A stretch of DNA of 64,000 bases from Oryzias latipes (taxonomy: Eukaryota; Chordata; Actinopteri; Beloniformes; Adrianichthyidae): assembly GCF_002234675.1 (NCBI RefSeq), contig NC_019877.2, positions 3,751,041 to 3,815,040 of the forward strand, in the 5' to 3' direction. A program made the translations under genes and the position numbers. The stretch's first letter is position 1, and each line of letters begins with the position of its first letter. Below the pieces are notes generated by a model that searched no databases, was not told the origin of the DNA, and worked only from the letters and a program-made list of their open reading frames with translations. Shown piece after piece: positions 4,350-48,576 of this stretch.

Positions 4350-5980
4350 TCACACCAGCAGTCTCTCGATTGCCATTTGGACCGACTGGATCTGCGGCTT
4401 GAGCTGGGATCCTTCCTTTATAGTGACGGAGGTGGCGATGACGGGACGCGACACGCCGCAGGCCCGGCCCAGCGCCTGCTTGGAGCGCACAAACACGTAC
4501 GGGACGTTCTTGTCCTCGCAGAGCAGCGGCAGGTGGAGGATGATCTCCAGCGGCTCAGCGTCAGCAGCCATCACAATGAACTCCGCGATGCCTCTGTTCA
4601 GGGTTTTGGTCGCTGTGGAGGAGAGAGCAGAGTCGCCTCGCTGTCAGAACACAGGAAAATGTAAACAATATTAACAATAATAATATTACTCCAAACCCTT
4701 GGAAGGTTTGATGATATAAAGTGTCAGAATATAAGATGACATACAAACATTTTTTTTTATATCAGGATGCTTAACTATGAAGCAAAACGAAGACAAAATG
4801 GCGTTTTTCAAATATCTGGACAGCATCTAGAATCGCTTGGATTCATCTAGATCCTACAAATATTTGGCTTGTTCATTTTTTTTATTACCTCAGCTTTAAA
4901 TTGACTGTTTATGAATAAAATGCATTTATTTGAAGCTTTTTTTAAACCAGAAAGTCCTGTTTAACACAGTTATGCAACCTTAATATCTCCTACTGATCGA
5001 TTTTGTAGAAAGAATTAAAGAAATACGAATGAAATTCTGTTTCAATTGGAAAAAAGTGACAACAATTCATCTATGGATTAATTTCCACTTAAACATTTGA
5101 CTTATTGAAAAATATTTGTGCAAAAACAGTTTTTTTATTGAATAGTTTATTAAATATTTTATACTTGTTTTCAGCTGTGAACAGCAGTTATGAATAAAAG
5201 GAGTTTAAAGCTAAACAGAAATGGAAATTTGCTATAAAAAATGTCATTTAACTCATTTTACTTTAGAATCAGTGTTTTAGCAGAGATGCAGCCCTGCATT
5301 CTCCAGCTTAGAGGGCTGTTTTGAATTTACAGCAGACTTTATGGGTTTTTTTTAGAAACACATTGGAGGTTAGAGTGAAGAGGGTCAACCTGCCAAAATA
5401 AAAGTTGCTTTCACAGGTAAGAAGCCTCCTCAGGATTTTTGCTCTGGTGAAAAATGTCTGCTGAAACACCAGATTCTTCTTCAACTCTTTCACGCTATCT
5501 ACTCTTTCTGGTTTAGGTACATTAATCATAGGCTTTAAATATTGGGTGATTTTTACCGGAAGTGAGAGAATCAAGCCTACTAAGCGCTTTATTTTATTTC
5601 GTTTCATCATGATGTTTCACGAATTTTGTCGTTAATACAGATAAAGACTGCGATAAATCCCAAGAATATTACACCGATCAGCTAAATATTTCTCCTTTAA
5701 TTCCCTTACCTTCGTTGGCCCCCTTCCTCAGCTGCTTGTAGTTGGAGGCTTGCTGCACCAAATCCAAAATAGTTTTGGTCAACGTGGCGTCGGCCAGCGG
5801 GTAAGCCTTTGGGTTAACCTCAGGTTCTGACTGTTGACAAAAAATAATAATAATAATGAAACACAATAATTACTTTAAATTTAGAATAGCCAGATTACAG
5901 CACCCCGCGTGCTGTTATCAGATGCTAATAGCTAGCGGCTTTCGTTAGCTTGCTAGCTCAAGACAAACTACACTCACCAT
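4350..5980 (-). CDS. snu13: SNU13/NHP2L1 (15.5K) RNA-binding protein, 3 exons
   Basis: Exons in coding order: 5978-5980 (only the ATG), 5710-5830 and 4350-4612. The total is 387 nt, giving 128 aa, the same length as human SNU13. The protein is an L7Ae-family K-turn binder. It nucleates the U4 snRNP (5' stem-loop of U4) and is a core protein of box C/D snoRNPs, acting in the nucleus and nucleolus. Seen: [32 protein letters not shown], then [43 protein letters not shown] and a C-terminal ERLLV. Identity to the vertebrate protein is nearly complete. The first exon ends exactly after the ATG (ATG then GTGAG), so the whole 5' UTR sits in exon 1. Intron 2 (4613-5709) shows no recognised small RNA. 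The promoter faces the L1 insertion and uqcrc2. Confidence 0.98.
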
Positions 5981-7508: not shown

Positions 7509-7710
7509 AGAGGAGCTAAGATGGCGGTCCGTGCGGTCAACTTTTTGTGAGCTGCTACGGTCCGGTCCCAAAATATCCCTTTTGACCTCATTTTCAAACT
7601 GCTGAACTAGTTTTGCTTTTTTTTGTATTACTCTCAAGTCTTACCACTGTAAAGAGACAAGAACGAAGTGAGAAAAACAACAACAGCAATAATAATTAAG
7701 AGCTCCTAGA

Positions 7711-8538
7711 ATGCCACGGGAAAAGCCTGTATCGGAGAAGCCGACTCCCGCATCCAAAAACCCAGAGATGACGACACATGACCACGAATACGCCATGGAA
7801 GTTTCCTCGCTGTCTACTAAAAGGAAAACCCCGGTTACACCCACCAAACCCTCCGTTCCACCTAACAAGGTAGTCGTCTCTAACAAAAGTGATGCCGAGT
7901 TGTCAGCATTAACTGCCGCCATCGAAAAACTGACTGCGAGATTTGACGACTTTGACGGTAGACTTCGGGAAAACTCTGTGATTCTGGCTAATCTGACGAA
8001 GATCACTGAGGTAAACGCTGCTGATATAAAGGACTGTAAATCCAAAGTGCACAATCTGGGAAAAGAAGTTTCTGTGCTGAGGAAAGACAATGATGACTTA
8101 AGAGAGAGGGTGGTGGAGATGGAGCGATATAAACGGCGCTGGAACCTGAAGTTACAAGGTTTGAAAGAAAAAACCGAGGAAAACACCCGCAAAGAAGTCC
8201 TGGAGATCCTGGCAAAGATCGCGCCACAGCACACATCGGTGTTGGAAATGGTTGTGGATACAGTACATCGGCTGGGGAGGAAAGAAACCGGGAGGCACCG
8301 GCAAATCATCATCCAGTTCTCCATGAGGCACTACCGCGACATCTTCTGGAAGGTTTCTAAGGATGCAAGGGTTTGTCAAGAGTTGGGAATCTTCTTCAAG
8401 CAGGATTTCTGCAAAGCGGACCGAGAAGCAAGAGCTGCTGTCTGGCCCAAAATGGAGAAAGCGAGAGCTGCGGGACAGAACGTGTACTACCGGGGCCACA
8501 TCGGGTACGCTAATGGAGTCCGTTTGTCTCCAGACTAG
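7711..8538 (+). CDS. L1 ORF1 protein (RNA-binding chaperone), 275 aa
   Basis: The ATG lies in a clean context 202 bp into the element. In order: a basic, proline-rich N-terminus (residues 1-65), a heptad-rich coiled coil (about 68-145, with LRKDNDDLRERVVEME), an RRM-like domain beginning at RRWNLKLQGLKE (about 144-155) with the second RNP-like strand at RQIIIQF, and a C-terminal domain ending WPKMEKARAAGQNVYYRGH. This is the L1 ORF1p (Transposase_22) plan: a trimer that coats L1 RNA in cytoplasmic particles. The frame is complete with no internal stop. A 227-aa open frame on the opposite strand here is a shadow. Confidence 0.93.
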   Translation: MPREKPVSEKPTPASKNPEMTTHDHEYAMEVSSLSTKRKTPVTPTKPSVPPNKVVVSNKSDAELSALTAAIEKLTARFDDFDGRLRENSVILANLTKITEVNAADIKDCKSKVHNLGKEVSVLRKDNDDLRERVVEMERYKRRWNLKLQGLKEKTEENTRKEVLEILAKIAPQHTSVLEMVVDTVHRLGRKETGRHRQIIIQFSMRHYRDIFWKVSKDARVCQELGIFFKQDFCKADREARAAVWPKMEKARAAGQNVYYRGHIGYANGVRLSPD

Positions 8539-8852
8539 CTGTTTTTTTGTTTTTTTTTTTTATTCTTCTTTACTAGTTTGGAGTTAACTACCATAAATGC
8601 TTTGTTCTTAAAGCATAAACCTCATTTGCTCCGTTTTTTCCACACCTTAAGTTCACAGAGGAAAGTGAAACGTTGTTGTTGTTAACTTGAAAGTTATAAG
8701 TTCTAAAGTATTTTTTCTAAAAGTTTGAGGTCTAGTTCTGCATTACAATGTTGTTTGGGATCTGAATTCCAACCGCTAACTTTCACCTTCAGTAACTAGC
8801 TAAGTAAGTAACTTTTTGTTCATTTTTGTGTTATTGTTTTTTTTTGTATTTC

Positions 8853-11800
8853 ATGTCTAATTTTAACTTTGTTTCTTTAAATGTTAGGGGTTTACGAGAC
8901 AATGTAAAAAGAAAATCTATGTTCCTATTCTGTAAAAATGTGAAAGCCAGCTGCATTCTACTGCAGGAAACTCATTCTGTTAAAGCAGACGAACAGTTTT
9001 GGTCTAATCAATGGGGAGACAAAATCCTATTCTGTCACGGTACAAACAAATCTTCTGGAGTTGCTTTGCTCTTTAAAAACTGTTCGTTCAAAGTGATTAC
9101 CCATATCTCTGATGATGACGGCCACTGGCTCATCTGTGTTCTTAAAACTGATGATGGTTTTCTGATCCTATGCAATGTGTATGGCTATAATATTCCTAGT
9201 CACAACAAGTTATTATTAACAGAAATTGCAAAACATGTCAAACTTCTCAATCATAAGTACTGTACAAATACTGTAGTAATTGGTGGTGATTATAACATGG
9301 TTCTAGATGAATGGCTGGATAGAGTACCCTCAAAGTTCAATACCCATCATATTAATCCAACTTTACGGGACTTTTGTCTTGATGTTAATGTTTCTGACCC
9401 CTGGAGGATCAAAAATCCTCTCAGACAAACATTCTCTTGGTTCAAGCCTAATGGATCTTCAAAATCTCGGATTGACTTCTGGCTAGTCTCAAATAACCTT
9501 CTACAAAACAAAATAGACGTTAACATCTCAGCAGCTCCCCTTACTGATCACTGTTTGATTGAACTTAATGTCAGCTCTCAAATCCAAAAATCCTTTGGAA
9601 GAGGCTACTGGAAATTTAATTCTTCACTTCTCACTAATGAAACTTTCTGTAATGCTGTTATTGAATTATTAGAAACACTAAATAGTGATTCAACCCTAAA
9701 ATCTTACACTGATAAGTGGGAATTCTTTAAATTCAAAGTACGTCAAACTGCCATTAAACATAGCAAATTAATTGCAAAACATTATAAGCAAAAAGAAACT
9801 GAAATTTTGACTGAGTTAAATCAGATTTGTTCCAAGCCTGTTTTCAACGAGGATGATAAACAACGCAGAAGCATTTTACAGTGTTCTCTTGACGATATTT
9901 ATATTAAAAAAGCGAAAGGAGCCTTCATCAGATCCCGAGCAAAATGGGTGGAGCTTGGTGAAAAGAGTACTTCTTATTTCTGTAATCTAGAAAAGAAGAG
10001 GCAAGAGAAGAATACTATAAAGAAACTTCATATTAATAATCAATTATGCTCTGATCCTCAAATGATCTCTAAAGAAATAAGTTCATTTTATAGTAATTTG
10101 TACTCGTCATCTTATTCCGAATCCCACAATAATACTTTTTTCCAGACAATTAAAGATTTCATTCCTAAGATTGATGACAATTTTAGAAATTCTTGTGATT
10201 CAGAAATAACTTTGCAGGAATTAGAGAAGGCTTTAAGCTGTCTCTCCAATGATAAAGCTCCAGGATGTGATGGACTGACCAGTAACTTTTATAAATTCTT
10301 TTGGCAGCATATCAAAGATTTAATTTTTGAAATGTTTAAAGAAATTATTCAAAATGGGTCTCTAACACATACAATGAAACAGGGTGTAATCACCCTTATT
10401 CCCAAGCCGGGTAAAGACCCAACCTTTCTAGATAATTTAAGGCCTATAACTCTTTTGAATACTGACTATAAGCTTCTAACACATATATTTTCAAACAGAT
10501 TCAAGTCAGACATAACCCAAATAATCTCTGAAACGCAGTCCGGTTTTATTAAAGGTCGCTCAATTCATAATAACTTACGCCTTGTTCTGGATATGATTGA
10601 CTATGAACATCTCATAGATACAGACGGTTTTATTTTATTTTTAGATTTTTACAAGGCCTTTGATATGATTGAGCATAATTTCATGTTTCAAACTCTGCAA
10701 TTCTTTGGTTTTGGTAACAAATTTATTAATACAGTTAAAACTTTTTATTATGAAACCAGTAGTTGTGTTTGTTTACCTCAGGGGACGTCTCACAGATTTA
10801 ACATCAACAAAGGTATAAAACAAGGTTGCCCAATTTCACCCCTTCTTTTTATTGCAGCAGCAGAAATGCTGTCTTTGCTCATCAAACATACTGACTTTGG
10901 TAAGCTGACAGTTGCAAATGCTGAATTTTCAATAAGCCAACTAGCCGATGATACAACAATTTTCCTTAATAATCTTCATGACATCCCCAAGATTCTTAAA
11001 ACTATTGACATCTTTTCAAAAGCTTCAGGCCTCAAATTGAACCTAAACAAATGTGAGATCTTACCCATTAAACCATGTACATTATTGAATGCTTATAATA
11101 TCCCTATTAAATCCACAGTTAAATACCTCGGAATGCATATAACTAAAAACAAAACAGACTTGGAAAAACTGAATGTTTGGGACAAACTAGAGAAATGTTC
11201 GACTCTGCTGAATAACTGGGCACAGAGAGATCTTTCTATTTTTGGTAGAATTCTCCTCACCAAAATTGAAAGCATATCAAGATTCATATATCCCACCTAT
11301 TCTATAGGTGTCCCTAAACAAGCCATCAAATCTATTAATCAAGTCAATTTTAACTTCATATGGAAAAGGAAAACACACTATGTTAAACAAGGTACGCTGA
11401 CTAAAAAATATGAAGATGGAGGTCTTCAAGCCATAGACTTTAACAGCCTTAATGGCACCTTAAAAATAAACTGGTTAAAATCATTTATTAGGAATCAAAA
11501 TAGTATTTGGTTCATTGTTCCTAATAAAATATTTTCCAGCCTAGGAGGGATCCAATTTTTACTCAGTTGTGATTTTGACAATAAGAAACTTCCCATTCAA
11601 CTTTCGTCTTTTCATCAGCAAGTTCTCATGTATTGGAAGCTCATTTATAAACACAATTACAGTCCACACAACACTCCTCTATGGAACTGCAGATACATCA
11701 CTATCAGAAACAAATCCGTCTTTGTTCCAACATGGTTTGAAAATGGAATTTGGTCTTTAATGCATCTTCTTAATGACAATGCCACTCTCATGTCTTTTGA

Positions 11801-12584
11801 TGATTTCACAGCTAAATATGGTTCACTAACGAATAGAAAAGATTTTGAAAAAATTATTAAGGCCATTCCTCAAAATGTTGTGAGCTCAGTTTCTGATTTG
11901 TTTCATAATGACATCTACAGACATCCTACTGTCCCCAAGCTTCTGATTAATGGACACAACATAGCAACTGCCAAACTCCCAAACCTTCAAATCAGAGAAT
12001 ATTTTAATGTAACGTCCTTTCCCTACGTCTCAAATCCAAATTATATAACCCAATATTTTAATAATTCAAAAAAGAAACAAATACGAACTAAATATTTAAA
12101 ACTCCCCATTCCTCCTAAAGCCAAGGAAGTTCACTTTAAGACCTTTTCAGGTATTTACCCTTCCAAGGAATTATTAAGAAAACGGTTTGGAATTCCTGAA
12201 AATTGTTGTTCTTTTTGTCATGTGGAGATTGAAACAACTGAGCATCTTTTCTTTGAATGTTTTTATTCTGATGTCTTTTGGAATAGCTTACACTATTGGC
12301 TTTTCCCCAAGATTCCACTTTTGGCAGACTTTTCTATTAAGGATATCATTTTTGGGTTTATTTTAGAAAACAAGAACACAGAACTTATTCTGAATGTTGT
12401 AATTATTTTGGGTAAATTCTATATACATAAATGCCGTTTCCTTAAAATCAAACCATTTTTTTCTACATTTCATAAAGAACTCTGCTCTTTTTTTTCATCT
12501 GTAAACTTCATGGAAAACAAACTTGCTATGGAACTTCAAAGTATCATATGTAAATTACAGCTTCTTGATAGCCCCCTAAGTTAA
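8853..12584 (+). CDS. L1 ORF2 protein: endonuclease-reverse transcriptase, 1243 aa
   Basis: The frame opens a few codons earlier, but the first ATG is at 8853. An APE-type endonuclease occupies residues ~1-235, with SLNVRG, LLQETH, GGDYNMV, SRIDFWLV and the final TDH (SDH in most relatives). The reverse transcriptase follows, with KAPGCDGL, LIPKPGKDP, LRPITLLN, SGFIKGRSI, the motif A strand FLDFYKAFD, GIKQGCPISPLLF and the catalytic LADD (FADD or YADD is more usual). Near the C-terminus a CCHC-type knuckle reads CSFCHVEIETTEHLFFEC. All expected catalytic residues are present and no stop interrupts the frame. It performs target-primed reverse transcription of the L1 RNA. Confidence 0.95.
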   Translation: MSNFNFVSLNVRGLRDNVKRKSMFLFCKNVKASCILLQETHSVKADEQFWSNQWGDKILFCHGTNKSSGVALLFKNCSFKVITHISDDDGHWLICVLKTDDGFLILCNVYGYNIPSHNKLLLTEIAKHVKLLNHKYCTNTVVIGGDYNMVLDEWLDRVPSKFNTHHINPTLRDFCLDVNVSDPWRIKNPLRQTFSWFKPNGSSKSRIDFWLVSNNLLQNKIDVNISAAPLTDHCLIELNVSSQIQKSFGRGYWKFNSSLLTNETFCNAVIELLETLNSDSTLKSYTDKWEFFKFKVRQTAIKHSKLIAKHYKQKETEILTELNQICSKPVFNEDDKQRRSILQCSLDDIYIKKAKGAFIRSRAKWVELGEKSTSYFCNLEKKRQEKNTIKKLHINNQLCSDPQMISKEISSFYSNLYSSSYSESHNNTFFQTIKDFIPKIDDNFRNSCDSEITLQELEKALSCLSNDKAPGCDGLTSNFYKFFWQHIKDLIFEMFKEIIQNGSLTHTMKQGVITLIPKPGKDPTFLDNLRPITLLNTDYKLLTHIFSNRFKSDITQIISETQSGFIKGRSIHNNLRLVLDMIDYEHLIDTDGFILFLDFYKAFDMIEHNFMFQTLQFFGFGNKFINTVKTFYYETSSCVCLPQGTSHRFNINKGIKQGCPISPLLFIAAAEMLSLLIKHTDFGKLTVANAEFSISQLADDTTIFLNNLHDIPKILKTIDIFSKASGLKLNLNKCEILPIKPCTLLNAYNIPIKSTVKYLGMHITKNKTDLEKLNVWDKLEKCSTLLNNWAQRDLSIFGRILLTKIESISRFIYPTYSIGVPKQAIKSINQVNFNFIWKRKTHYVKQGTLTKKYEDGGLQAIDFNSLNGTLKINWLKSFIRNQNSIWFIVPNKIFSSLGGIQFLLSCDFDNKKLPIQLSSFHQQVLMYWKLIYKHNYSPHNTPLWNCRYITIRNKSVFVPTWFENGIWSLMHLLNDNATLMSFDDFTAKYGSLTNRKDFEKIIKAIPQNVVSSVSDLFHNDIYRHPTVPKLLINGHNIATAKLPNLQIREYFNVTSFPYVSNPNYITQYFNNSKKKQIRTKYLKLPIPPKAKEVHFKTFSGIYPSKELLRKRFGIPENCCSFCHVEIETTEHLFFECFYSDVFWNSLHYWLFPKIPLLADFSIKDIIFGFILENKNTELILNVVIILGKFYIHKCRFLKIKPFFSTFHKELCSFFSSVNFMENKLAMELQSIICKLQLLDSPLS

Positions 12585-12817: not shown

Positions 12818-12858
<41 letters not shown>

Positions 12859-13029: not shown

Positions 13030-16000
13030 ATGAAGGGGATCCGAGGAATTACCCAGCTGTCGGTGAGAATTGTAACATTTTTGTCGCTCCATTTGTAGCC
13101 CTAATATTGGCAACGGTTGCCCTGTCTGTGTTTTTATCCTCAAAATAAAGAAAAAAAGAAGCAGGGGTCGTTCGTGAACCTTCTAGTGCTAGCACTCTCA
13201 GCAGACGAGGAAGCTAGTTGGACTTTAAGCTACAACGACCTACTGGAGAATGTTTATGCCATAGAACATCACATACTCTGCCTTTACACATTAATTTAAT
13301 ATACGTTTACATTAAAGTCACTCTTGTTCAATGGGATTGCTTCTTTATTCCGCTGAAATGTCTCTAACCCCGGCAGCTAACTGCTAGTGATTCTAGTGTC
13401 AAAACTTGCAGAGCTCACACATTACTCACCCTATTTTCCAAGATAAGGTCATTTAAAATGAAAATAATCAGGTTTTCATATAGTTTAAGATTTACACACA
13501 TTTGCTTTTTTGACCTATGTTTGTCTATATTAAACATCCATTTGCTTTCACCGTGTTTACTTACTGTTCAATCTCTTATGATTAAACGAATAGAAGTAAT
13601 CGGACAGATTTGCATAATCTTATGTGTTTGTTAAAATGATACTTTTATTTTTAGCCCCTTAAGTACTTCTTCATTAGTTAGTGAATAACATGTTATTAAT
13701 AACCGCCACAAATAGGAATAAAAAGGTTGAAACTTGTTTAAAATCATCCGAAAATTGATAATTTTCTCAAACGTGTAACATAGATAGATAGATATAAACT
13801 TTATTAATCTCCCAAAGGAGAAATTCAGGTGTCCTGTAGCAAAACACACAACCACACACAACAAACAACAGTAAAAAGACAGTTCACAAAATAATATCAG
13901 TTCATATCAGGCAGGTTCATTAAACAGCCTGATAGCTGTAGGGACAAATGAGTTCTTAAAGCGCTCTGTCCTGCAGCGCAGTGAAAGGAGTCTATTACTC
14001 CGTGTGCTCCTCTGACCTGACATCGTGTTGTGCAAGGGATGTCTGGGATTGTCCAGTATGCTCTGTGTCAAGGCCCTCATCCTCTTCTGCAGCACAGATC
14101 CCAGAGAGTCCACCCTCCTCCCGATCACAGATGCACATCTCTTGATCAGTTTGTCCAATCGAGTGCAATCCCTCATGGCCATACTGCCATCCCAACATAC
14201 AACCCAATAGAAGACAGCACTCGCCACAACCGACTGATAAAAGAGGAACAACATGTCAGTACATAAGTCAAAGGACCTCAGCTTTCTCAGGAAGAACAGC
14301 CTACTCTGCCCTTTCTTATACAGAGCATGAGCCTGCTCCGACCAGTCCAGTTTGTGGTCAAGGTGCAAACCCAAACCACCTCGATTCCCCCACCATCGAT
14401 GATCACTGGCTGGTGGGAGGACTTCCTACTAAAGTCAATGATCATCTCCTTGGTTTTTGATGTTTTCAGCACATAGTCTAATACAGAATAATTATAGCAT
14501 CCTTTAGCCTATACCATAACCCTGTTTGTTCACGTTCTCCTGAGTTTAAAGTTTTAGAGCAGTTTTCAGGGGTGATTGCATTGTTCTTTTCTGGAAGAGC
14601 GTCTTCAGTCAGGCTGGATTCTTCCACAGAACATCTCACACCTCAACTCCCACGGCAATACGACAACTACGACAACATTTAGCAAATCACGGCTTTTAAA
14701 CACTACACCTCTGTATTTATTTTCATTATTTTTTCTGTTATGCCACCTATTTTATCTTATCTATATATTTTTTGTTCTTTGTCTACTTTTTCTTAATTGT
14801 TGCTTTTATGTTTTGTGAATTTAATGTTGTGTTGACAACCCCATCTATGTTGTTTCTGTATCTGCTGTTGGCTGCCTTCTGTTATCCTTTCTGTGTTGAT
14901 TTAAGTTGCAAGTCTTTTTACTTAACCTGTCTACAGAGACTGAAGATGGAATTAGCCTAAAAGGCTATAATGTTATACATTTTAAATGGTATTTTAATAT
15001 GTGCGGACCCTGCCTTAAAACCAACCAACAAACCATAATAGTCACTCCAGTGCTTACATTCTGTATTATACCCATGGAAATGGCTGGTTCCTGGAGAAAA
15101 CCAGCTGGGAAAGCCGCTGACTCAACCCGTGAGCCCACAGCACCTTAGTTATGATGTCCACCCTTCCCATGTTCTTTGTGTTTCCAGAGGAGGCTTTATG
15201 CAGCCCAGGCTGCCCGTAAGGTGGAGGTGACTGGGTTTCAGCCGCAGGATGTGCAGGTCAGTGGTTGCTGACTTCTTTTTCTTTTCCACAGAGGCGCTTC
15301 TATGCAGCTGCCGGGAGAGGCCAGTCCCTTGTGCAGCCCTTGACTGGCCTCCAGCTCACTCCTGGAGCTTTTCATCACTACCAGGATGTCCATGTAGGTT
15401 GGTGTGTGATAGGAAAGGATGCAGAAGAGATGAGCTTGAACAGTAACGCATCTAAGATTTAGTTTTGCCTAAGACGGCTGTCTTGTTACTCCGTAATTGT
15501 TGAGCTATATCCACATGCAGTGAGTGGCACCTTCTATTACAAGCTTTAATGGCTTTTTTTTCTTCAGTAGAAATGTTTCTGTGTCTGTTCTTCCAGGTAA
15601 CCAGGTTGCCCAGCGGACTGGTGATTGCCTCGCTGGAGAACTATTCCCCAGCCTCTAAGATCGGCGTGTTCGTCAAGGCAGGCTGTCGCTATGAAACCCC
15701 GGAAAACGTGGGGGTAACCCACCTGCTCCGACTGGCTTCTAATCTTGTAAGAGTTTCATCTCTTTTTATGCAGTGATTATTACTATTTTATTTTTTTTAC
15801 ATTTAAAGCAGCAAATAAATGGTCAACGGATAAGATTGAAAATCATTTTTTGATTTGAAATGGTTTATTTCAAGCAATCAAATAAGAATAATACACAAAA
15901 AACATTGCAACCATCAGTTGTACATTCATACAGTGATGTATCAAACCCAAATTAAATATTGCTTGAAAGGGAGTGAACTTCTATAATCCCACCCCTGTTC

Positions 16001-19000
16001 TACCGTACCTGATTTATCATTATCCAGTTCATAACATTTATCAGACAGAGTTAAGAATCCTTAGGTATGAAAAAACACGCATAACAAAGATGAATTACTT
16101 ATTATGTAAAAAATAGACATAACTATCTTAGAAATCAAAATGGAAAATGCAAAACAACTTTTTGTTGTCTGGTTTCAGACGACTAAAGGGGCTTCAGCGT
16201 TTAAGATATGCCGTGGGGTTGAGGCAGTGGGGGGCAACTTAAGGTTAGTGATTTCCCAAAAGGTTTTTTTTAAGGCAAAAAACTGTTATGAAATATTTCA
16301 AATGATTCATAAAAATGTGCTTTTTCCTGCGCAGTGTGACTTCGTCCCGAGAGAACATGGTCTACACCGTTGACTGCCTGAGAGATGATTTGTGAGTCTT
16401 CTTCATGAGAAGGAGACTTTGGGGAGGAAAAAATGATCACTTCTTATTAATGAAAGTATATAGTCATTTAAGATTACATTTGCATTTCTGTTTGAATGCA
16501 GCGACACAGTGATGGAGTTTCTGATCAATGTGACCACCGCTCCGGAGTTTCGTCCATGGGAGGTGTTGGATCTCACACCGAGAGTGATCCTGGACAAAGC
16601 TCAAGCTGCCCAGAGCCCCCAGATCGGTGAGATATTTATACTGCCGTGTTGATCTTTCTCTCTCACATGATTTGATACGCATCTCGATATAATGGTTCAC
16701 GAATCCATACAGAAAAGATTCAACTGTAGTCCAGTTCTTTCACCTAAATCTAGATATTTACTATTCATTTGGCATTTAAAACTATAAATGGTGATACCTT
16801 TTATCAGGGAGACTCTTTTTTTCTATTCTGGCACTTTTTATTTTAACCTTTAAAAGACAAAATGTCTTTGGCATAACAGCTTCAAAAACTAAAAAAACAG
16901 TGTCATCATAATTTCTTCAGGTATTCTTCTTTGTGTGCTGTGAAAGACGTGTTGTTATGCGTTTAGTGAACACAACACGCATCCCTCGCCGTGGTAGAAG
17001 CAAGCTTGTGATTGGTCATCTTTTTGTTTGTGTCACATGTACGATAAAAGACAAAAACAGTAGAAACACAACAACTTTATCCAACTGCAGTAAACATTTA
17101 AAACATGTCTGGGAAACATTAAACCTGGACCTAGACTGCTTAAATTGTGCAATGATGGATGTTTTTTTCATTTTTATTTGAAATTTTTTCTGTTTTTTTT
17201 TTTTTTAAACAATTTTTGTCACATTTTAATTGGGCATCCTGTTTTTTTGTAGATCACAAATGCACTTTCATTAAGCAACAACTTAGTGTTTAGTTACTGG
17301 ATAATGCACTTTTTATTCAGTATTTATTACTTTTATTAACAAGGTTTTTTAAGGTACAAGTGTTGCACAGTCAAGGAAGCACTTTTTAATTTCTGACAAA
17401 TAAAGATCTGTTCTATTCTATTGTTTTTTATTCTATGAAGAAAAACTGACAAAGTTCTCTAGACACTGATTATTTACTTCCCTTATGAATTTTTTGTTTT
17501 TTTACCTTTTTATAAATATAATCTCTTCATATCTGTGGTTTTCAACCGTTCCTCAGTAATAGATCAGTTTTACTACGCATCTGCTTCTTTTACATCCCTA
17601 ATTAATACACACAGTGTCCCTGAAAACACACACCCCTTTATAAACAAATTACTGTTAATTAAAAGGCTTTTTCCTTCTTGTGTTATTTCATGATCAAAGC
17701 ATTTATAGAACTAACTTATGAAATTTAGGTGAAGACATGTTTTCTTTTGATTTTTTTCTGTGATTTATAAATAATTCAGATATTTTCATGCTGTTATTTG
17801 CCTAAAATATATAAAAAAAACTTACTTGTTTCATATTTGTTCTTTTCAAAATAAAAAAATATAAATATTTAATTGGTTTTGGAGTAAAGTTTGATCCCGT
17901 CTTCTCATTTGAATGTAGAGGATTTCAAATCTTGTGTATTTTAATACATTAAAAGCCCTTTTTACCATTTCCAGGCGTCATTGAGAGTCTGCATCAAGCA
18001 GCTTATAAGAACGCGCTGTGCAACTCCCTCTACTGCCCAGACCACATGGTTGGCAACATCCAGTCTGAACATGTAAGTCTTTGTTCCGATTTCCATCAAA
18101 GAAAGATATAATCTTTTTAAATCTTTCTAAAAACTCTTTTCCCCCCCACAGCTGCATCAGTTTGTCCAAAATAACTTCACAAGTGCCAGGATGGCTCTTG
18201 TTGGGCTCGGTAAGAATCCTTTTTTATTTAAATGTCGCCCAACCTTATTGAACTATTTCTGGAAGTCGTTTTGATGGACACCTGTCCTCCAGGTGTGGAC
18301 CATGATGTTCTGAAGCAGGTGGGGGAGCAGTTCCTCAACATCCGCAGTGGAGCCGGGTCTGCCGGAGCCAAGGCTCAGTACCGCGGAGGTGAGTTGGCTC
18401 AAAACGCTCCGCTTTTGACAAATCCAGCGCCGTGACGTAACGTGTTTGTGGGTGTGGTCTGCAGGCGAGGTCCGGCTGCCCGGTACCAGCAGCCTGGTCC
18501 ACGCTGCCGTGGTGAGCCAGTCAGCAGCAGCAGGAACCGGCGAGGCCCTGGCCTTCAGCGTGCTGCAGCATCTGCTGGGAGCCGCTCCAAACGTCAAGAG
18601 GGGAGCCGCCGTTTCCAACAAACTGGTCCAGGGTGTTGCCAAGGCAACCACTGACCCCTTTGATGTGGGTGGCCGTTGGTGACATATCGACTAACTTGCC
18701 GTTGTCTCAGTGAATCCAGAAAGTTTTAGATTTCTTCTTTTGTGAACAGGTCAGCGCTTTTAACGCGAGCTACTCGGACTCCGGTCTGTTCGGGGTGTAC
18801 ACCATTTGCCAGGCTGCTGCAGCTGCTGAGGTCGGGATGCTGTACTTTTTAAACAAACCTACTGCAAATGTTAAACCCGTTTCCATGGTAACAACTCTCA
18901 TGTTTCGTCTCTTAAGGTGATCAGGGCAGCTGTTGCCCAGGTGAAAGCCGTTGCCGATGGTGGAGTCACGGCTGCTGACCTCACTCGAGCCAAGTAAGAC

Positions 19001-19412
19001 GTTACTAAGGGGAGAAAAATAAAATCTGTTTTCCATTGAAGGTCTTTTGGCTGAAACAAGGTTTCTTTTTTTGTTTTGTTTTTCCCTCCTGTTAGGGCCC
19101 AGCTAAAGGCTCACTTCATGATGTCTCTGGAAACGTCAGAAGGTTTGCTGGAGGCAGTGGGAGCTCAGGCTTTGGCCAGCGGATCGCACCAATCCACCGA
19201 AGAAATCTCCAAAAACATCGACAACGTCTCCCTGAACGATGTTGCTAACGTAAGATTTCTGCAAATTTGATCTTTTTTTTTGTTTTAAATCGTTTCTATT
19301 TAATTATTTTGATTTTAAAACTCCGTAGGCTGCAAAGAAATTTGTCACCGGCAAGAAGTCCATGGCGTCCAGCGGGAACCTCATAAACGTACCCTTCGTG
19401 GATGAGATCTGA
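13030..19412 (+). CDS. uqcrc2: Cytochrome bc1 complex core protein 2 (UQCRC2)
   Basis: Exons: 13030-13062, then 15188-15256 (2a) or 15292-15393 (2b), 15597-15746, 16179-16243, 16335-16391, 16502-16626, 17975-18072, 18152-18209, 18293-18388, 18465-18664, 18750-18830, 18917-18993, 19096-19249 and 19329-19412. With 2a the product is 448 aa (human 453); with 2b it is 459 aa. It is a peptidase-M16 fold core subunit on the matrix side of complex III, without the HxxEH zinc motif ([10 protein letters not shown] at that place). Homology blocks include [36 protein letters not shown]-like sequence, [20 protein letters not shown] and a C-terminal FVDEI. The presequence [15 protein letters not shown] has the basic, amphipathic look of a matrix import signal with an R-x-Y cleavage motif. 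The polyadenylation signal AATAAA is at 19614. Intron 6 (16627-17974) is AT-rich with a LINE-like tail. Confidence 0.98.
13780..14478 (-). mobile_element. LINE fragment, Rex1/CR1-like, 5'-truncated
   Basis: This lies in uqcrc2 intron 1. The minus-strand frame 13907-14374 encodes a reverse-transcriptase C-terminal region ([12 protein letters not shown]-type start, [40 protein letters not shown]). A second frame at 14287-14472 carries the preceding [11 protein letters not shown] and [12 protein letters not shown], so at least one frameshift separates them. The 3' end (at low coordinates) reads TTTATTAATCTCC beside a short TAGA repeat, a common tail in these fish LINEs. The Rex1 assignment is from memory; the LINE call is firm. 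Confidence 0.8.
15188..15393 (+). other. uqcrc2: Duplicated, probably mutually exclusive exons 2a/2b of uqcrc2
   Basis: Exon 2a (15188-15256, 69 nt) encodes [12 protein letters not shown]...QPQDVQ. Exon 2b (15292-15393, 102 nt) encodes [13 protein letters not shown]...HYQDVH. Both have good acceptors (TTTCCAG, TTCCACAG) and donors (GTCAGT, GTAGGT), both are phase 0 on each side, and both share the start AGG-x-G-x-CTT/TTC-TAT-GCA-GC and the end CAGGATGT. The 35-bp gap 15257-15291 is below the size that vertebrate spliceosomes normally remove, and retaining it gives an in-frame TGA. Exon 2a matches other vertebrate UQCRC2 proteins; 2b is not one I recognise. Its expression is not shown by sequence alone. 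Confidence 0.8.
17160..17430 (+). repeat. Possible LINE 3' tail in uqcrc2 intron 6
   Basis: An AT-rich segment ending ACAAATAAAGATCTGTTCTATTCTATTG. This AATAAAG plus TTCTA-repeat ending recurs, inverted, near 27828 and is typical of short LINE tails in fish. No coding part is visible. Confidence 0.35.
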
Positions 19413-40132: not shown

Positions 40133-40580
40133 CCTGCGCGCGCGGAGGTCCGTGCGTAAAGATCGGTCCGTATCCAAAATTTGAACCGCCGAGACGCTCA
40201 AAACAAAACGCTAGAGAGAAAAAACGAGCACGCGCTTCTTATGATTTAAATTCTGAGAGAAAGATGTGGAAACATCCTCAGGCTTCACTCAAATGACAGG
40301 AGCAGCTGCAGAGAAGTCAGTTTGGGAGGGACGCACGCGAGCCGCGCATGGATGGAGCACGTGTCAATGTTTTTGGAACATCTTTATTTATACCGTAATA
40401 ATAACAATAAAAACGAACAGTTTTAAAAAAGAAACAAATATCAGTAAAATGCGATGAATAAAAATCATTCAGGATATTTATATACAACACAACAAAGAGG
40501 ACAAAAAAAATCATAAACGGGAATCACTGCACTGACAGCCGTTTTCTTTTGAACCCCCTTCTCCTTCCTCCACTCCAGTG

Positions 40581-42234
40581 TCACTCTTCTCCTCTGGCTG
40601 TCTTGATGATCTTCTCTCGCCTCACTTTGGCTGCCTCCTCAAACTTGGTGATGGCTTCAATGCACCTTTTTTTCTATGGGAAAAATGATTGTTACTATAA
40701 TAGCAGAAGACTGCTCGTCTCATTAGGAGACATTACATTTTCTTAAGGAATTATTCTGCTAGTCATCAGTTTTGGATTATTAAAAAACAAAAATCTATAG
40801 AATATTTAGAAATGTGCCCTAAGAAGTCATGGAACCCCATTCAAACATACGGTGATAATTTTGTCTTTCTCCTTTTGGAGTTTGAAGAATTCTTCCATAG
40901 TCAGGTCCTCAACGTTTTTGGTTAAAGAGATGAAGCTGCAGGAAGGTGCGTGAGATTTGTGCTCCTTCCTGTCAAAAAAAAAAAAAAAAACAACACAAAA
41001 AAATAAATAAATAAACAGATGCTTGATGTATGAACCCACAAACGACAAAAGGTTATCATTAAAGGACGACTGACTTGCAAAAGTTACCTGTAAATGTCTA
41101 GAACTGTTTCCGGAGAGAAGAAGAACTTCTAACATTAAATAATAAACAAAAGTCCACACATGTCTGCTTTTCTCTATGTACATTTTTAACTTTCAGGCAG
41201 CTGATGGCGTTTTCTCTACATAGATACATAAACAGATGCAGCTGCATAAAACTCACTGTGGGTCGTCGTCTGGCTCCCAGCCCTCCAGCTCTTTGAGGCA
41301 GAAGAAACACATGGCGATGTCTGGGCTGTTGTCTGAGGGCGTGTGGACAAAGCCAGCTCTGGCCATCTACAAGAGAAAACACGCCGGGAGTTTCACTTCT
41401 AAACATGCAGTCTTTCAATTAAATATGTCAGTTTTTACACTTATAGGAATCAGGAATCTTTATTGTCATTTTATCACATGATAAAACAACATTAGGTTCT
41501 CTGGTCCCGGGCCAGCCGTTTAGTGAGACACGAATAAATCATATAAATATGATACGGTGTGGTTCCTGTTGAGTATTGCACAGAGAATATGTTATAGTAA
41601 AGCAATAGCATTATAGAAATTTTGTTTTGAGGCAACAATTGACTAAAACGGCAATTTGTCCCAAGTAATTCCCTGTAGTTATCAATATTTTGAGCATAAC
41701 ATCCTCTGCTGCTTTGAGTAAAATGCCTTTTTCCAGGATACAGGAAATGAACAAGAAAACATTTCAAAATAAAAGGTGATAACCAGGAACCCAAAGATTA
41801 ACTTTATAGTTGACTATAAAATAGCTTAATAAAGTGAGTTAAGCATCACAGTTTTGAAAGGCTTTACTTTATTATTATTTTTAAATTAAAATAAAGTAAA
41901 TTACAATGGATGGGTTTCAACAATGCCTCCCGCTGTATGACTGTAGAGATTAAGCTTTAAATTTCTGTGACATTTTACCAAATGATGAACTTATTCTAAC
42001 GTATAGTTGAAGGTTTGTGAACGACAAAATTTAAACTTTACAGTAAATTGCGTTGTTTTGAAACCTGTCAGCTAGCATGGCCTGTTTCGTTGCTTACGGA
42101 CTAAACACGAAAGGCTTCTATTCACTCACGTTCTCCGGGGTGCAGGTGCAGTCTTTGTCGAAAGGCCAATTTTCAAAGGTTTTCAATCTGTTTTCAAAAA
42201 GATACATTTTATCTTCCTCGTTAAACGGGTCCAT
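40581..42234 (-). CDS. birc5: Survivin (BIRC5), chromosomal passenger/IAP protein
   Basis: Exons in coding order: 42130-42234, 41257-41366, 40851-40968 and 40581-40673. The total is 426 nt, giving 141 aa (human 142). Survivin joins INCENP, borealin and Aurora B in the chromosomal passenger complex and limits apoptosis. The BIR domain is complete: [21 protein letters not shown] (with the Thr that corresponds to human Thr34), and the zinc ligands CFFC...EHKSHAPSC. The long C-terminal helix [18 protein letters not shown] follows. The fourth exon begins with seven A residues directly after TAG, in phase 0. An AATAAA on this strand lies at 40383-40388. Its promoter is shared with faap100. Which teleost paralogue (a or b) this is cannot be settled here. 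Confidence 0.97.
41445..41770 (-). repeat. Possible LINE tail in birc5 intron 1
   Basis: The motif AGGAATCTTTATTGTCATTTTATCACATG resembles, in reverse, the AATAAAG-ended tails of fish LINEs. No coding part was recognised in this 763-bp intron. Confidence 0.3.
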
Positions 42235-42717
42235 CGTCTTTTATGCCAGACTCTAACTCTTGAACTAACAACAAGATCTCCCAAAAATGTTGCTAAGCTA
42301 GAGGGCGTTTTTAAATTTCAGCGGTTGGGAACGTCGGCTGTTTTGATTGGCGGATGAACGTCACATGTCTTCTGGTTTCCGCTTTCATTTTTTTTTTAAT
42401 TTTGTTGCTGTTGAAAAGTCTAAATAAGAAAAACATGGAACTTTACCATTGATTTTTCTGTGGTATATTTTAGGATACATTGAAAATTTTAATATATTTG
42501 ATGAATCTGTTTGAAAAAGTACAGTATAAAAAAAGTGCTTCCGGTGTTGATGGGTAATGTAGTTAGCGTGCTTTTTGTTAAAAATGTGACGCGCGTAACT
42601 TTCTCCGCCTTCCTGCACCGCTTCTTAAAACTCGTTTTTGCTGTTTTTGTGTCGCTCTTAACCTAATTTAGAAAAACATGGACTTAAAGCGTCACTTTAG
42701 TCTTGCATTTTGTTAAA
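42235..42717. promoter_or_regulatory. birc5/faap100 bidirectional promoter region
   Basis: The two ATGs are 483 bp apart and point away from each other. Facing birc5, TTTAAA at 42310-42315 is one of the accepted CHR elements of cell-cycle genes, about 76 bp before the birc5 ATG. GATTGGCGG at 42345-42353 holds an inverted CCAAT box. Both fit the G2/M control known for survivin (NF-Y and DREAM/MuvB). Repeat-free sequence across the gap supports a shared promoter (inference). Confidence 0.55.
42678..42716 (+). CDS. Short upstream ORF of faap100, 12 codons
   Basis: ATG GAC TTA ... TGT TAA encodes MDLKRHFSLAFC and stops one base before the faap100 ATG (TAA-A-ATG). Such close spacing would allow limited reinitiation. 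It matters only if transcription starts upstream of 42678, which the sequence does not show. Confidence 0.4.
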   Translation: MDLKRHFSLAFC

Positions 42718-45700: not shown

Positions 45701-48576
45701 TTTATCACAGCTAATGTTAATTTTTTGTTCCAAAGCTCTGATTGTTGTCTTGCACAAAAAAAACTGATTTATATCTTGACGTTTTTATTCTTTTCTTTTT
45801 ACCCTAATGCAAATATTGAACATCTAAAGACGCTTTTTGGGGAAAACAAACTGAAACATTCACACGTGTTGATTTCTTTTCAACTCTTATATTAAACAAC
45901 AATATTTTTGCTTCTTTTTCAGAGCATCTGCACTGAAAACGGTCATCAAATCCCAAAAATTAACGCTCAAGCGGCTAAATCAGGTCGTCAACACTTGTTT
46001 CTTGCTGAAATCCCCCGAGGAGCATCTTCCAACCGAAGAGAAGCCGATCAGATGTTGTGCCACAGTCGACTGGAGCAGACTGCTTCTAAAGGACTCTTTG
46101 AATCTCACGTGCGTCTTGGAAAACTCAAGTTCTTGCACTCTGGAGCGAGGATGGACTCTGTGCATCAGCGTCTGTCCTCTTTCTTGTTCACCCGTAGAAG
46201 CAGAGTCCTCAAATTTCACTTTCCCGATCCTCAATCTGTCTCCAGGAGGAGCGTTGGAAGTGTCCGTGCCGGTTGCAGCTGCAGGTGGCGCCGCCTTCCC
46301 CTTGACGGTGAACTGTTCGCTTGCCTTCTCCCTCTTGGGTGTCCTGGAAGAGCAGGAACTGGAGAGCTTTGCTGGCTTGCAGAGCAGTTTTTTCACCTTC
46401 TCCTTGAATTCCCTGACAGTGGACTGGTTGCACGCTTTGCAAGTGATCGGGCCCACGGCTGCGCAGAGATCACGCGCAACAACCGATGCCGTCCAGGCGT
46501 TTCTTAGCTCACGCCAAATGAAGCGGCGCCAAGGACCAGACGGAGGCGGAGAGAGCTCCGCCGTGTACTCTGCATGCGTTTGGGTGTCACTAGAGTTACT
46601 GAGGGACACGCTGAGGACAAGGATGTTGGGCTTGGGCACCAGTGAAGAAGAGTCTGCCTCCATCTCTCTGTCTCTTCTCAACTGGCTGTTATTTGAGAGT
46701 CATGGAGGAGTGAAGATGGGGCGCAGAGGAGATCAGGATGGCACGAGCAGCTCAGAGGTTCACGCACGTTCTCCTAACGAAGCCACAGTCAAGCTGAGCG
46801 TCAAAGAGGTGAGCCTGCCCTCACGGTGTCTCCTGCATGATCGATCCGCTCCTTCTCAAACGCTGCTCATCTGTTCTCCAGGTGAACGAGGAGAACTCTG
46901 TTAAGGAAGCCCACGTAGAAGTTCAGATTGAGAGCTCGTCTGTAGCGGCGGTGTGTGGCCTGCGTCACGCTGTGCTGCGGCGTTTGCAGGTACATTATTC
47001 AGACGACGCACAAATCCACAGAGAGGAGTGTTTGTAAAACTGCAAATCCCAACGCCACCAAACACGCTGGACGGAGGCCGCCGGGACTAAAGGAGTGCAA
47101 GTTTTCCTGCTAATCCATAGTTTTCAAAGCGATATTACCACCTTTAGTCTTGACGTTGGTGCAGAAGGGCTTCTTTTAAAAAATAGCTGTTATGCTATTT
47201 GTTTATTTTTTTATCTTCTGAATTTTTTTGGGAATCAGGCGGTCAAGTCTGCCCTATTAAATCTGTCCACAGAAGCTGGTCATCGTCGAAGAAAATGTGA
47301 GGCTTCAGTTTGGTTCCTCCCACAGTTTAGTAGTTCTTATTAAATATTCTAATCCCTCCAGATTATCATCAAGTTGCCCTCATCATGCTGAAATGTCCTA
47401 CTCGTATTCTTGGCAATAGTTTTTCCAATTCAATTTTATCTATATAGCCCAATATTACAACACAGTTGTCCCAACGGGCTTCTTGTATCTGAAAGCACGG
47501 TCTTACTCTTTTCTGTAGAGTTTGTTGGCGATGGTTCCCGTGGAAACGGCTGCAGCCAAAATGGTCCAGATTTCGGATTTAAAATCAGCGCTTCAAAGGG
47601 CTGAGGTAAGACTTCACACTGCCAGGTCAAGTCTGCAACCACAACCAAAGTTTTTTTGACCTTTGACCTAGGGGAACAGGCAGTCATCTTGAATTTTCTT
47701 TAAAAAAAAACTACCTTTAGAGCCTGCTAAAAATTTAAACTCCTCCTTGGGATTTCGATCGAATGCCTTCTAACTCCACGCTCACAACATGCGTGTTTCC
47801 CTGTTGTAGGCATTGAACATTGAGACAATTCCACACATGAATCCTCGGCTCAAGTTGAAGGAAATAATATGACATAAGATATGAACATATTAGGAATGTG
47901 GGCGTGAAAATCCTACGCTGCCAAGGAAGAGCAAAACTTTACTTTTGCCAATTTTTCTAAAAATTGCATTGACGTGTTCGTCACCCCCAGGCAACCAAAA
48001 AGTAAAATGGTTGCTATGGCGATAAAACCAACTGTAAGCTGCAATCTTGAAAAAAAGATTAATTTGGTGCAGCTCTGACCTGGGGGGCAGAGGCAAAAGA
48101 TGGGGGTCGAAAGGGGCCGGGCAGCGTTTGTTAAACACCATTTGCAGCTTAAATATTAACGGCTGTTTTTCTTTTCTTTTTTATATACTTATCTTTTGTT
48201 TTTTTGTTCTAGTGTTTGTGATTTTATGCCGTTATTAGTTTGGACATGAAATCTGTGAAACTGAAGTGTGAAAGTTTGATTTTTAAACCATATTGCCATT
48301 TTAAACTCTCCTTTGATCAAGTTTTTCTTCACTCATTTCTCTTAAATATTCCTTAAATGTGTCGCTGCACCAGAAGGAGACCAATGTCTGCCTTTTTTTT
48401 TTGTTTTACTCCAGAACTGTCACAAACCTGAGAAATGTTATTTCTCCTCCTATAATCAGATTCAGCAGAGCGGAATCTCAGAAGCTCTCAGCTCAGACGT
48501 GTCCTCCGCTCAGATGAACCCGTTTCTTCTGGACGTTTACCAGAAGCTCAGAGAGAACCGCCTCCTCATGATTTAA
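42718..48576 (+). CDS. faap100: FAAP100, Fanconi anemia core complex protein
   Basis: Exons: 42718-42873, 42944-43059, 43577-44421, 45416-45572, 45923-46808, 46882-46989, 47519-47605 and 48460-48576. The total is 2472 nt, giving 823 aa (human 881). FAAP100 forms a subcomplex with FANCB and FANCL that drives FANCD2/FANCI monoubiquitination in crosslink repair, in the nucleus. Blocks shared with human: KLLFGVDAALAKSPVVIWGL (LLFGADATLLQSPVVLCGL), the LVAVGERGRVVLI strand, CVPGPVKCC, VLENSSSCTLERGWTLCI, VEVQIESSS and the C-terminal VYQKLRENRLLMI. The N-terminal half is a beta-propeller-like domain; the helical part near ERASALKTVIKSQKLTLKRLN follows. Rep-A copies sit in introns 2, 3 and 7. The 233-aa minus-strand frame over exon 5 is a shadow. 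AATAAA lies at 48677. Confidence 0.95.
43065..43470 (+). repeat. Rep-A copy 3 (faap100 intron 2)
   Basis: Similarity to copy 2 begins at CTTTTATTCTGTCCC, within about five bases of the exon 2 donor at 43060, and runs to AACATGGTTGCTATG. The central part containing the DR1 is missing. Confidence 0.7.
44440..45205 (+). repeat. Rep-A copy 4 (faap100 intron 3)
   Basis: A long copy from GTGTCCCACAGCAATCCTGG to AAAATGGTTGCTATGGAGAT. Its DR1 (TAACCTTTGACCT, 44770-44782) has one mismatch. The left limit is approximate. Beyond it a GT-rich stretch (45240-45330) precedes exon 4. Confidence 0.7.
47610..48060 (+). repeat. Rep-A copy 5 (faap100 intron 7)
   Basis: Starts within about ten bases of the exon 7 donor (47606), with CAGGTCAAGTCTGCAACCAC, and ends AAAATGGTTGCTATGGCGAT. 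An exact DR1 (TGACCTTTGACCT) lies at 47657-47669. As in copy 1, the first part of the unit is absent. Confidence 0.72.

Follow-up and report, generated by a model that had tools for sequence, protein, structure and literature searches.

Isoforms of respiratory-chain subunits are usually regarded as the products of separate genes. Steric exclusion between neighboring exons is exemplified by exons 2 and 3 of alpha-tropomyosin, where the branch site lies near the upstream donor and far from the acceptor, and in mitf the fish duplicates have each kept one alternative form of the first part of the protein by means of alternative first exons. The uqcrc2 gene of medaka (Oryzias latipes) described here resembles alpha-tropomyosin in the nearness of its candidate branch site to the upstream donor, but unlike alpha-tropomyosin that site is not far from the acceptor, and it differs from mitf, each copy of which has one form, in that one uqcrc2 copy has apparently kept both by splicing.

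As is proposed here for uqcrc2, OGDH, a mitochondrial enzyme of vertebrates, has duplicated mutually exclusive exons (4a and 4b) whose branch points lie too near the upstream donor (PMC7969005). The distance from the OGDH branch point to the upstream donor is 25-41 nt in human and 46 nt in sunfish, mapping of the branch point having been unsuccessful in cod and zebrafish, and a distance of about 50 nt is given as the limit for simultaneous assembly of both spliceosome parts, although some double-inclusion or double-skip products were obtained with fish and frog reporters (PMC7969005). Two differences set the systems apart. The OGDH gap measures 118-131 nt in birds and mammals, with branch points far from the acceptor (PMC7969005), whereas the uqcrc2 gap measures 35 nt and its candidate branch site lies at an ordinary distance of 21 nt from the acceptor; and the choice between 4a and 4b changes the response to Ca2+ (PMC7969005), whereas that between the uqcrc2 exons 2a and 2b would change an N-terminal tail. 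A survey of human clusters of mutually exclusive exons lists 57 potential cases (given as 9%) with a donor-branch distance below 50 among 629, and uqcrc2 is absent from its main text (PMC5740500). As to very short introns, 22 human introns of 37-65 nt have been screened, with splicing evidence for 15 and those of 43, 49 and 56 nt named (PMC4463651).

In the available portions of the literature searched on uqcrc2 splicing and on exclusive exons, no report of exclusive exons in UQCRC2 was found. The uqcrc2b gene of Betta splendens, which may correspond to either of the two medaka uqcrc2 genes, is among the genes differentially spliced between groups W0 and L0, taken here as winners and losers, the event itself being unstated in the text available (PMC9150285). 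In rainbowfish, uqcrc2b is upregulated at higher temperature (PMC4831457), and retained-intron events touching UQCRC1 and UQCRC2 are described in leukaemia (PMC7140081); no uqcrc gene appears in the main text of PMC9534849. Other passages mentioning uqcrc2 concern gene lists, expression or a probe sequence. Sterically enforced mutually exclusive exons are an already known type of system; as far as the literature searched extends, the novelty lies in the gene in which they are found, in how tight the gap is and in the sharing of exon kinds with a duplicate gene.

The window, that is, the whole 64-kb stretch of DNA analyzed, contains a complete uqcrc2 gene at 13030-19412 (+), the exon borders of which were set by GT-AG sites and by the reading frame (Table 1). 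Exon 1 joined to exon 2a and exons 3-14 yields a coding sequence of 1347 nt (448 aa) that is open to the stop codon, and the equivalent joining with exon 2b yields one of 1380 nt (459 aa), likewise open to the stop. When both second exons are skipped and exon 1 is joined directly to exon 3, the frame is also kept, giving 425 aa, and the R-x-Y cleavage motif is lost. The protein of the 2a form matched solved core 2 chains over its full length (residues 16-448) at a best E of 2.3e-183, with far lower scores for core 1 and processing-peptidase chains, and both M16 peptidase domains (PF00675 and PF05193) were found above their cut-offs. The predicted product of this gene is therefore UQCRC2, the core 2 subunit of complex III.

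Table 1. Coordinates of the uqcrc2 exons and of the elements between exons 2a and 2b, as positions in the window.
Feature	Position	Strand	Remarks
Exon 1, coding part	13030..13062	+	11 residues; ends in phase 0
Exon 2a (kind A)	15188..15256	+	69 nt, 23 residues; middle like the mammalian exon 2 segment
Gap of 35 nt	15257..15291	+	2a donor gtcagt, branch-site consensus, pyrimidine tract, cacag
Candidate branch site CTGAC	15268..15272	+	A at 15271; motif match only
Exon 2b (kind B)	15292..15393	+	102 nt, 34 residues; middle like the sole exon 2 of the C8 paralogue
Exon 3	15597..15746	+	acceptor common to 2a and 2b
Exons 4-14, up to the stop codon	16179..19412	+	bulk of the M16 domains

Exons 2a and 2b are each preceded by AG and followed by GT, and the length of each is divisible by three. 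The first-pass annotation had described them as two adjacent second exons in phase 0 on both sides, and their coordinates, lengths and phases were re-derived as it gave them; re-reading likewise confirmed that both begin with RR(L/F)YAA and end with QDV, and that retention of the 35-nt gap would add in-frame stops. Its further claim that the two exons are homologous is supported for their ends only. When all open phase-0 segments of 20-50 codons flanked by AG and GT were collected from both strands of the 64 kb (3129 candidates), exon 2b was the best aligner to 2a once 2a and a shortened form of it were set aside, with a score of 29 that was attained by none of 20000 residue shuffles. The best segment overlapping neither exon scored 14, and those having the start or the end of 2b scored 18, 16 and 12. 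Once the first six and last four residues were held fixed and the middles shuffled 2000 times under four gap settings, the middles of 2a and 2b showed no likeness beyond chance, the observed score being attained by 174-1125 of the 2000 shuffles; a VTGFQ/LTGLQ block that had been taken as homology running through the middles was dropped, as these shuffles gave it no support. The likeness between the predicted 2a and 2b peptides is, then, beyond chance and rests on the exon ends only. The sequence has several of the features by which mutually exclusive exons are recognized, namely adjacency, coding for the same segment, likeness (here of the ends), equal phase and a frame kept by each exon alone; similar length is a further such feature, without a fixed limit here, and 2a and 2b differ by half in this respect. 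The region occurs once, at 100%, in the assembly.

The gap itself reads gtcagtggttgCTGACttctttttcttttccacag; the smallest other intron of this gene measures 76 nt. Of the 14 uqcrc2 acceptors, that of 2b is the only one with a CTRAY match within 45 nt, and six have the looser YTNAY; by our own estimate the chance of finding YTNAY in 35 nt is about 0.4 and that of CTRAY about 0.12, so YTNAY is not rare. The 2b acceptor also has the tract with the highest pyrimidine content of the 14. The 2b donor is mediocre, scoring 2.5 on a donor matrix on which five of 12 other donors score no higher, and the 2a donor scores better. Measured from the A of the candidate branch site, the 2a donor is 15 nt upstream and exon 2b 21 nt downstream, and any branch site inside the gap would be at most 35 nt from that donor, below the donor-branch distance of about 50 nt that serves as the steric criterion. 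Since both the gap and this spacing fall under that limit, an exclusive choice between 2a and 2b is expected, and the annotation's argument from spacing is upheld. Exclusivity by steric hindrance is accordingly well grounded in the sequence, although by analogy with the OGDH reporters it may leak. The sequences of the 2a donor and of the 2b branch-site match complement each other and could form an 8-pair hairpin at 15255-15274, the energy of which lies within that of shuffled sequences (z -0.85, with equal or greater stability in 36 of 200 shuffles); RNA structure as the selector was rejected on this ground, and the fold of the whole region did not go beyond chance either (z 0.42, 128 of 200 shuffles). 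Across the 14 acceptors, that of 2b does not stand out by its count of PTB-type motifs.

Searched against the medaka genome, the exon 3 peptide matched two loci, the gene in the window and C8:11696782-11696931 (-), which is 74% identical. The C8 gene (locus L083) begins with an exon 1 encoding MRGIRSLNNFS, its exons 3-8 (150, 65, 57, 125, 98 and 58 nt) keep an open frame and have the same lengths as those of the window gene, and its matches continue to PFVDEI, exons 9-14 being known from tblastn matches alone. It is apparently a second, intact uqcrc2. Between exons 1 and 3 this gene has a single exon 2 of 96 nt, KRCYAAARRRETLTEPLESLKPSKPLPPQDVQ (L083 5561-5656, -). Its score is 50 when aligned to 2b and 33 when aligned to 2a, a 17-point gap that comes mostly from length. 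The end of the C8 exon, PQDVQ, is closer to 2a, and the 2b end HHYQDVH departs from both. When the gene strand of the C8 locus was scanned for segments of 15-60 codons, those of the 313 candidates that did not overlap this exon scored no higher than 3 against 2a and 7 against 2b, and none resembling 2a appeared. A processed copy was sought with exons 1, 2b and 3 to 7 joined, which gave nine matches (seven on C19, these being the single exons of the window gene, and two on C8) and no joined exons, with only four candidates scored. Scans with the exon 3 peptide gave 54 pattern-matching stretches in viral contigs, none of them confirmed, and at least 596 stretches in genome contigs, where the 79 confirmed loci were all titled as bacteria or metagenome bins.

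The middles of the exons, which do not link 2a to 2b, do link each of them to a different partner. Under the same middle-only procedure, 2b and the C8 exon were alike with z values of 4.9-6.5 (none of 2000 shuffles in each of the four gap settings), and 2a and the mammalian segment with z values of 4.3-4.9 (0-1 of 2000 shuffles in the four settings), whereas the middles of 2a and C8, of 2b and mammals, and of C8 and mammals were not alike beyond chance (at least 174 of 2000 shuffles in every setting). These likenesses define two kinds of exon, A (2a and mammals) and B (2b and C8). The UQCRC2 of mammals and chicken is the same protein as fish uqcrc2, and the mammalian chains share with it the R-x-Y site and the kind A tail; to our knowledge, no kind B exon is known in mammalian or chicken UQCRC2. 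It seems quite probable that the two second exons of uqcrc2 are an ancient, mutually exclusive pair, the A member of which is shared with mammals and the B member with the fish paralogue.

Exon 2b is likely to be in use. A comparison of 2b with the C8 exon in 25 ungapped codons gave 32 base differences, 17 of them at third positions, with 13 residues kept, and under equal random change at least 13 residues would be kept with a P of 0.002-0.003, a test that sums both branches, of which the C8 side may carry part or all of the constraint, and that uses codons chosen for gapless alignment. In the ten terminal codons of 2a and 2b, seven bases differ, five of them at third positions (P 0.045), and eight of ten residues are kept (P 0.016-0.019). 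The GC content of 2b (0.588) was reached by none of 744 overlapping intron windows of uqcrc2, and its codon log-odds by none of 1238 intron windows, with a table trained on the exons and introns of the same gene. Frame +1 of 2b scores slightly above the coding frame (0.47 vs 0.32), yet it contains a stop; an open frame of the length of 2b arose by chance in 0.15-0.37 of trials. The existence of a C8 paralogue with a sole exon 2 of the 2b type argues against 2b being a dead duplicate.

A related alternative, which we consider unlikely, is that 2b has become a relic after kind B was handed to the C8 paralogue, being now little used or mere noise while nearly all of the mRNA contains 2a. An apparently intact B-only paralogue would indeed free 2b of its task, and such a loss would fit the weaker 2b donor and the deviant 2b end, but the frame of 2b, both of its splice sites, its branch-site match and its strong tract are all intact. 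In a model without indels, a neutral 2b would have kept its splice dinucleotides, frame and ends with a probability of 0.0018 at K 0.41, 0.07 at K 0.2 and 0.34 at K 0.1, where a K of about 0.41 changes per site per copy is the Jukes-Cantor estimate from differences at five of the ten third positions. A relic would accordingly fit only if 2b had gone out of use recently.

At the protein level, the first-pass annotation had placed the cleavage of mammalian UQCRC2 after R-F-Y, which fits an offset of 14 between the 453-aa and 439-aa chains, with RFY at 12-14, and the R-x-Y-A site that it read in both 2a and 2b is present at an equivalent position in each; the C8 exon has R-C-Y-A at the corresponding spot. 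The cleavage tyrosine is separated from QD by 15 residues in 2a, 26 in 2b and 21 in mammalian chains, so that 2a is not of mammalian length. The 2a and 2b forms would differ in the predicted mature tail alone. Some deposited core 2 chains start late (5xte_K at PQD and 6haw_B at QD), which suggests that the N-terminal tail is poorly ordered.

These properties of the tail bear on a second alternative, according to which 2b is used but its role lies at the level of RNA or import, through the amount of core 2 or the processing of the presequence, the mature tails being functionally equal. The altered segment does comprise the presequence junction and a tail that is absent from the late-starting chains, and the double skip that removes R-x-Y stays in frame. 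Nevertheless, kind B is the sole form of a paralogue and its residues have been kept beyond random change, and the former point argues that kind B works as a core 2 tail; we regard this alternative as rather improbable.

Over 185 residues of exons 3-8 the two fish genes share 135 identities, the window gene and chicken 133, and chicken and human 147. In a four-row tree, the fish genes grouped apart from chicken and human with a support of 100/99, and 13 site patterns favored this joining against 3 and 0 for the alternatives. With this grouping, and if no transfer took place between the genes, A and B would both have been present before the duplication, and C8 would have lost A. It is conceivable that there was no ancestral pair and that this gene acquired 2b at a later time from the C8 paralogue, through conversion or copying, and the middle of 2b, which resembles the C8 exon and is unlike 2a, would fit such an event. 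However, at the DNA level 2b and the C8 exon agree in only 73% of 83 aligned columns and their third positions have changed widely, which would make any transfer old, and an in-frame landing between 2a and exon 3 together with splice signals would need luck, all of which makes this origin very unlikely. A chance reading or an assembly artefact is all but excluded, for although each single sign is common by chance, 2b is top among the 3129 segments, its middle is alike to that of C8, the region is present once at 100% in the assembly, and the C8 paralogue exon nearly excludes such an explanation. Both exon kinds, therefore, probably predate the fish gene duplication, which may be the teleost genome duplication, and one copy kept both.

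The old exclusive pair that we favor could operate as follows. The A/B pair would have been present in the fish gene before its duplication, after which the C8 copy would have lost A, to make B only, while the copy in the window kept both. With only 15 nt between the 2a donor and the 2b branch site, there would be no room for U1 on the former and U2 on the latter at once, and each mRNA would then contain either 2a or 2b, or neither, in frame. As 2b offers the richer pyrimidine tract and a branch-site consensus and 2a the better donor, the choice might, like that between OGDH 4a and 4b, turn on tract-binding factors. Either product would undergo import and cleavage after R-x-Y, yielding core 2 proteins that are identical except for the matrix-side tail, which would have 15 or 26 residues ahead of QD. 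By extension, it is possible, though we put it forward only tentatively, that fish have two kinds of complex III with core 2 tails A and B, an old pair of forms arising in part from the all-or-none splice choice and in part from the duplicate fixed for B, and that tissue, stage or stress governs the switch between them.

The same two tails would apparently be supplied by splicing in one gene and also by a duplicate gene, and laboratory fish could reveal the role of the poorly ordered core 2 tail and why both forms persist. With its gap of 35 nt, the pair would also be a naturally occurring example of exons that exclude each other sterically at very close range.

Several other elements were observed in the window. 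Upstream of uqcrc2, an uninterrupted 1258-aa frame of a LINE-type retrotransposon, with endonuclease, reverse transcriptase and zf-RVT matches, occupies 8808-12584 (+); a 280-aa open frame precedes it at 7696-8538 (+), and a run of A follows it at 12820-12858, about 170 bases before the uqcrc2 start codon. Intron 1 of uqcrc2 contains, at 13907-14425 (-), a 172-aa frame matching Pfam ALKBH8_N, which is probably a transposon piece, given that such matches are frequent among the frames of fish retrotransposons. Farther away, an exon of the Ribosomal_L7Ae family at 4350-4643 (-) presumably belongs to snu13, a frame matching FANCAA at 45873-46904 (+) is probably faap100, and exons at 40580-42240 (-) resemble, as judged by eye, the survivin (birc5) gene.
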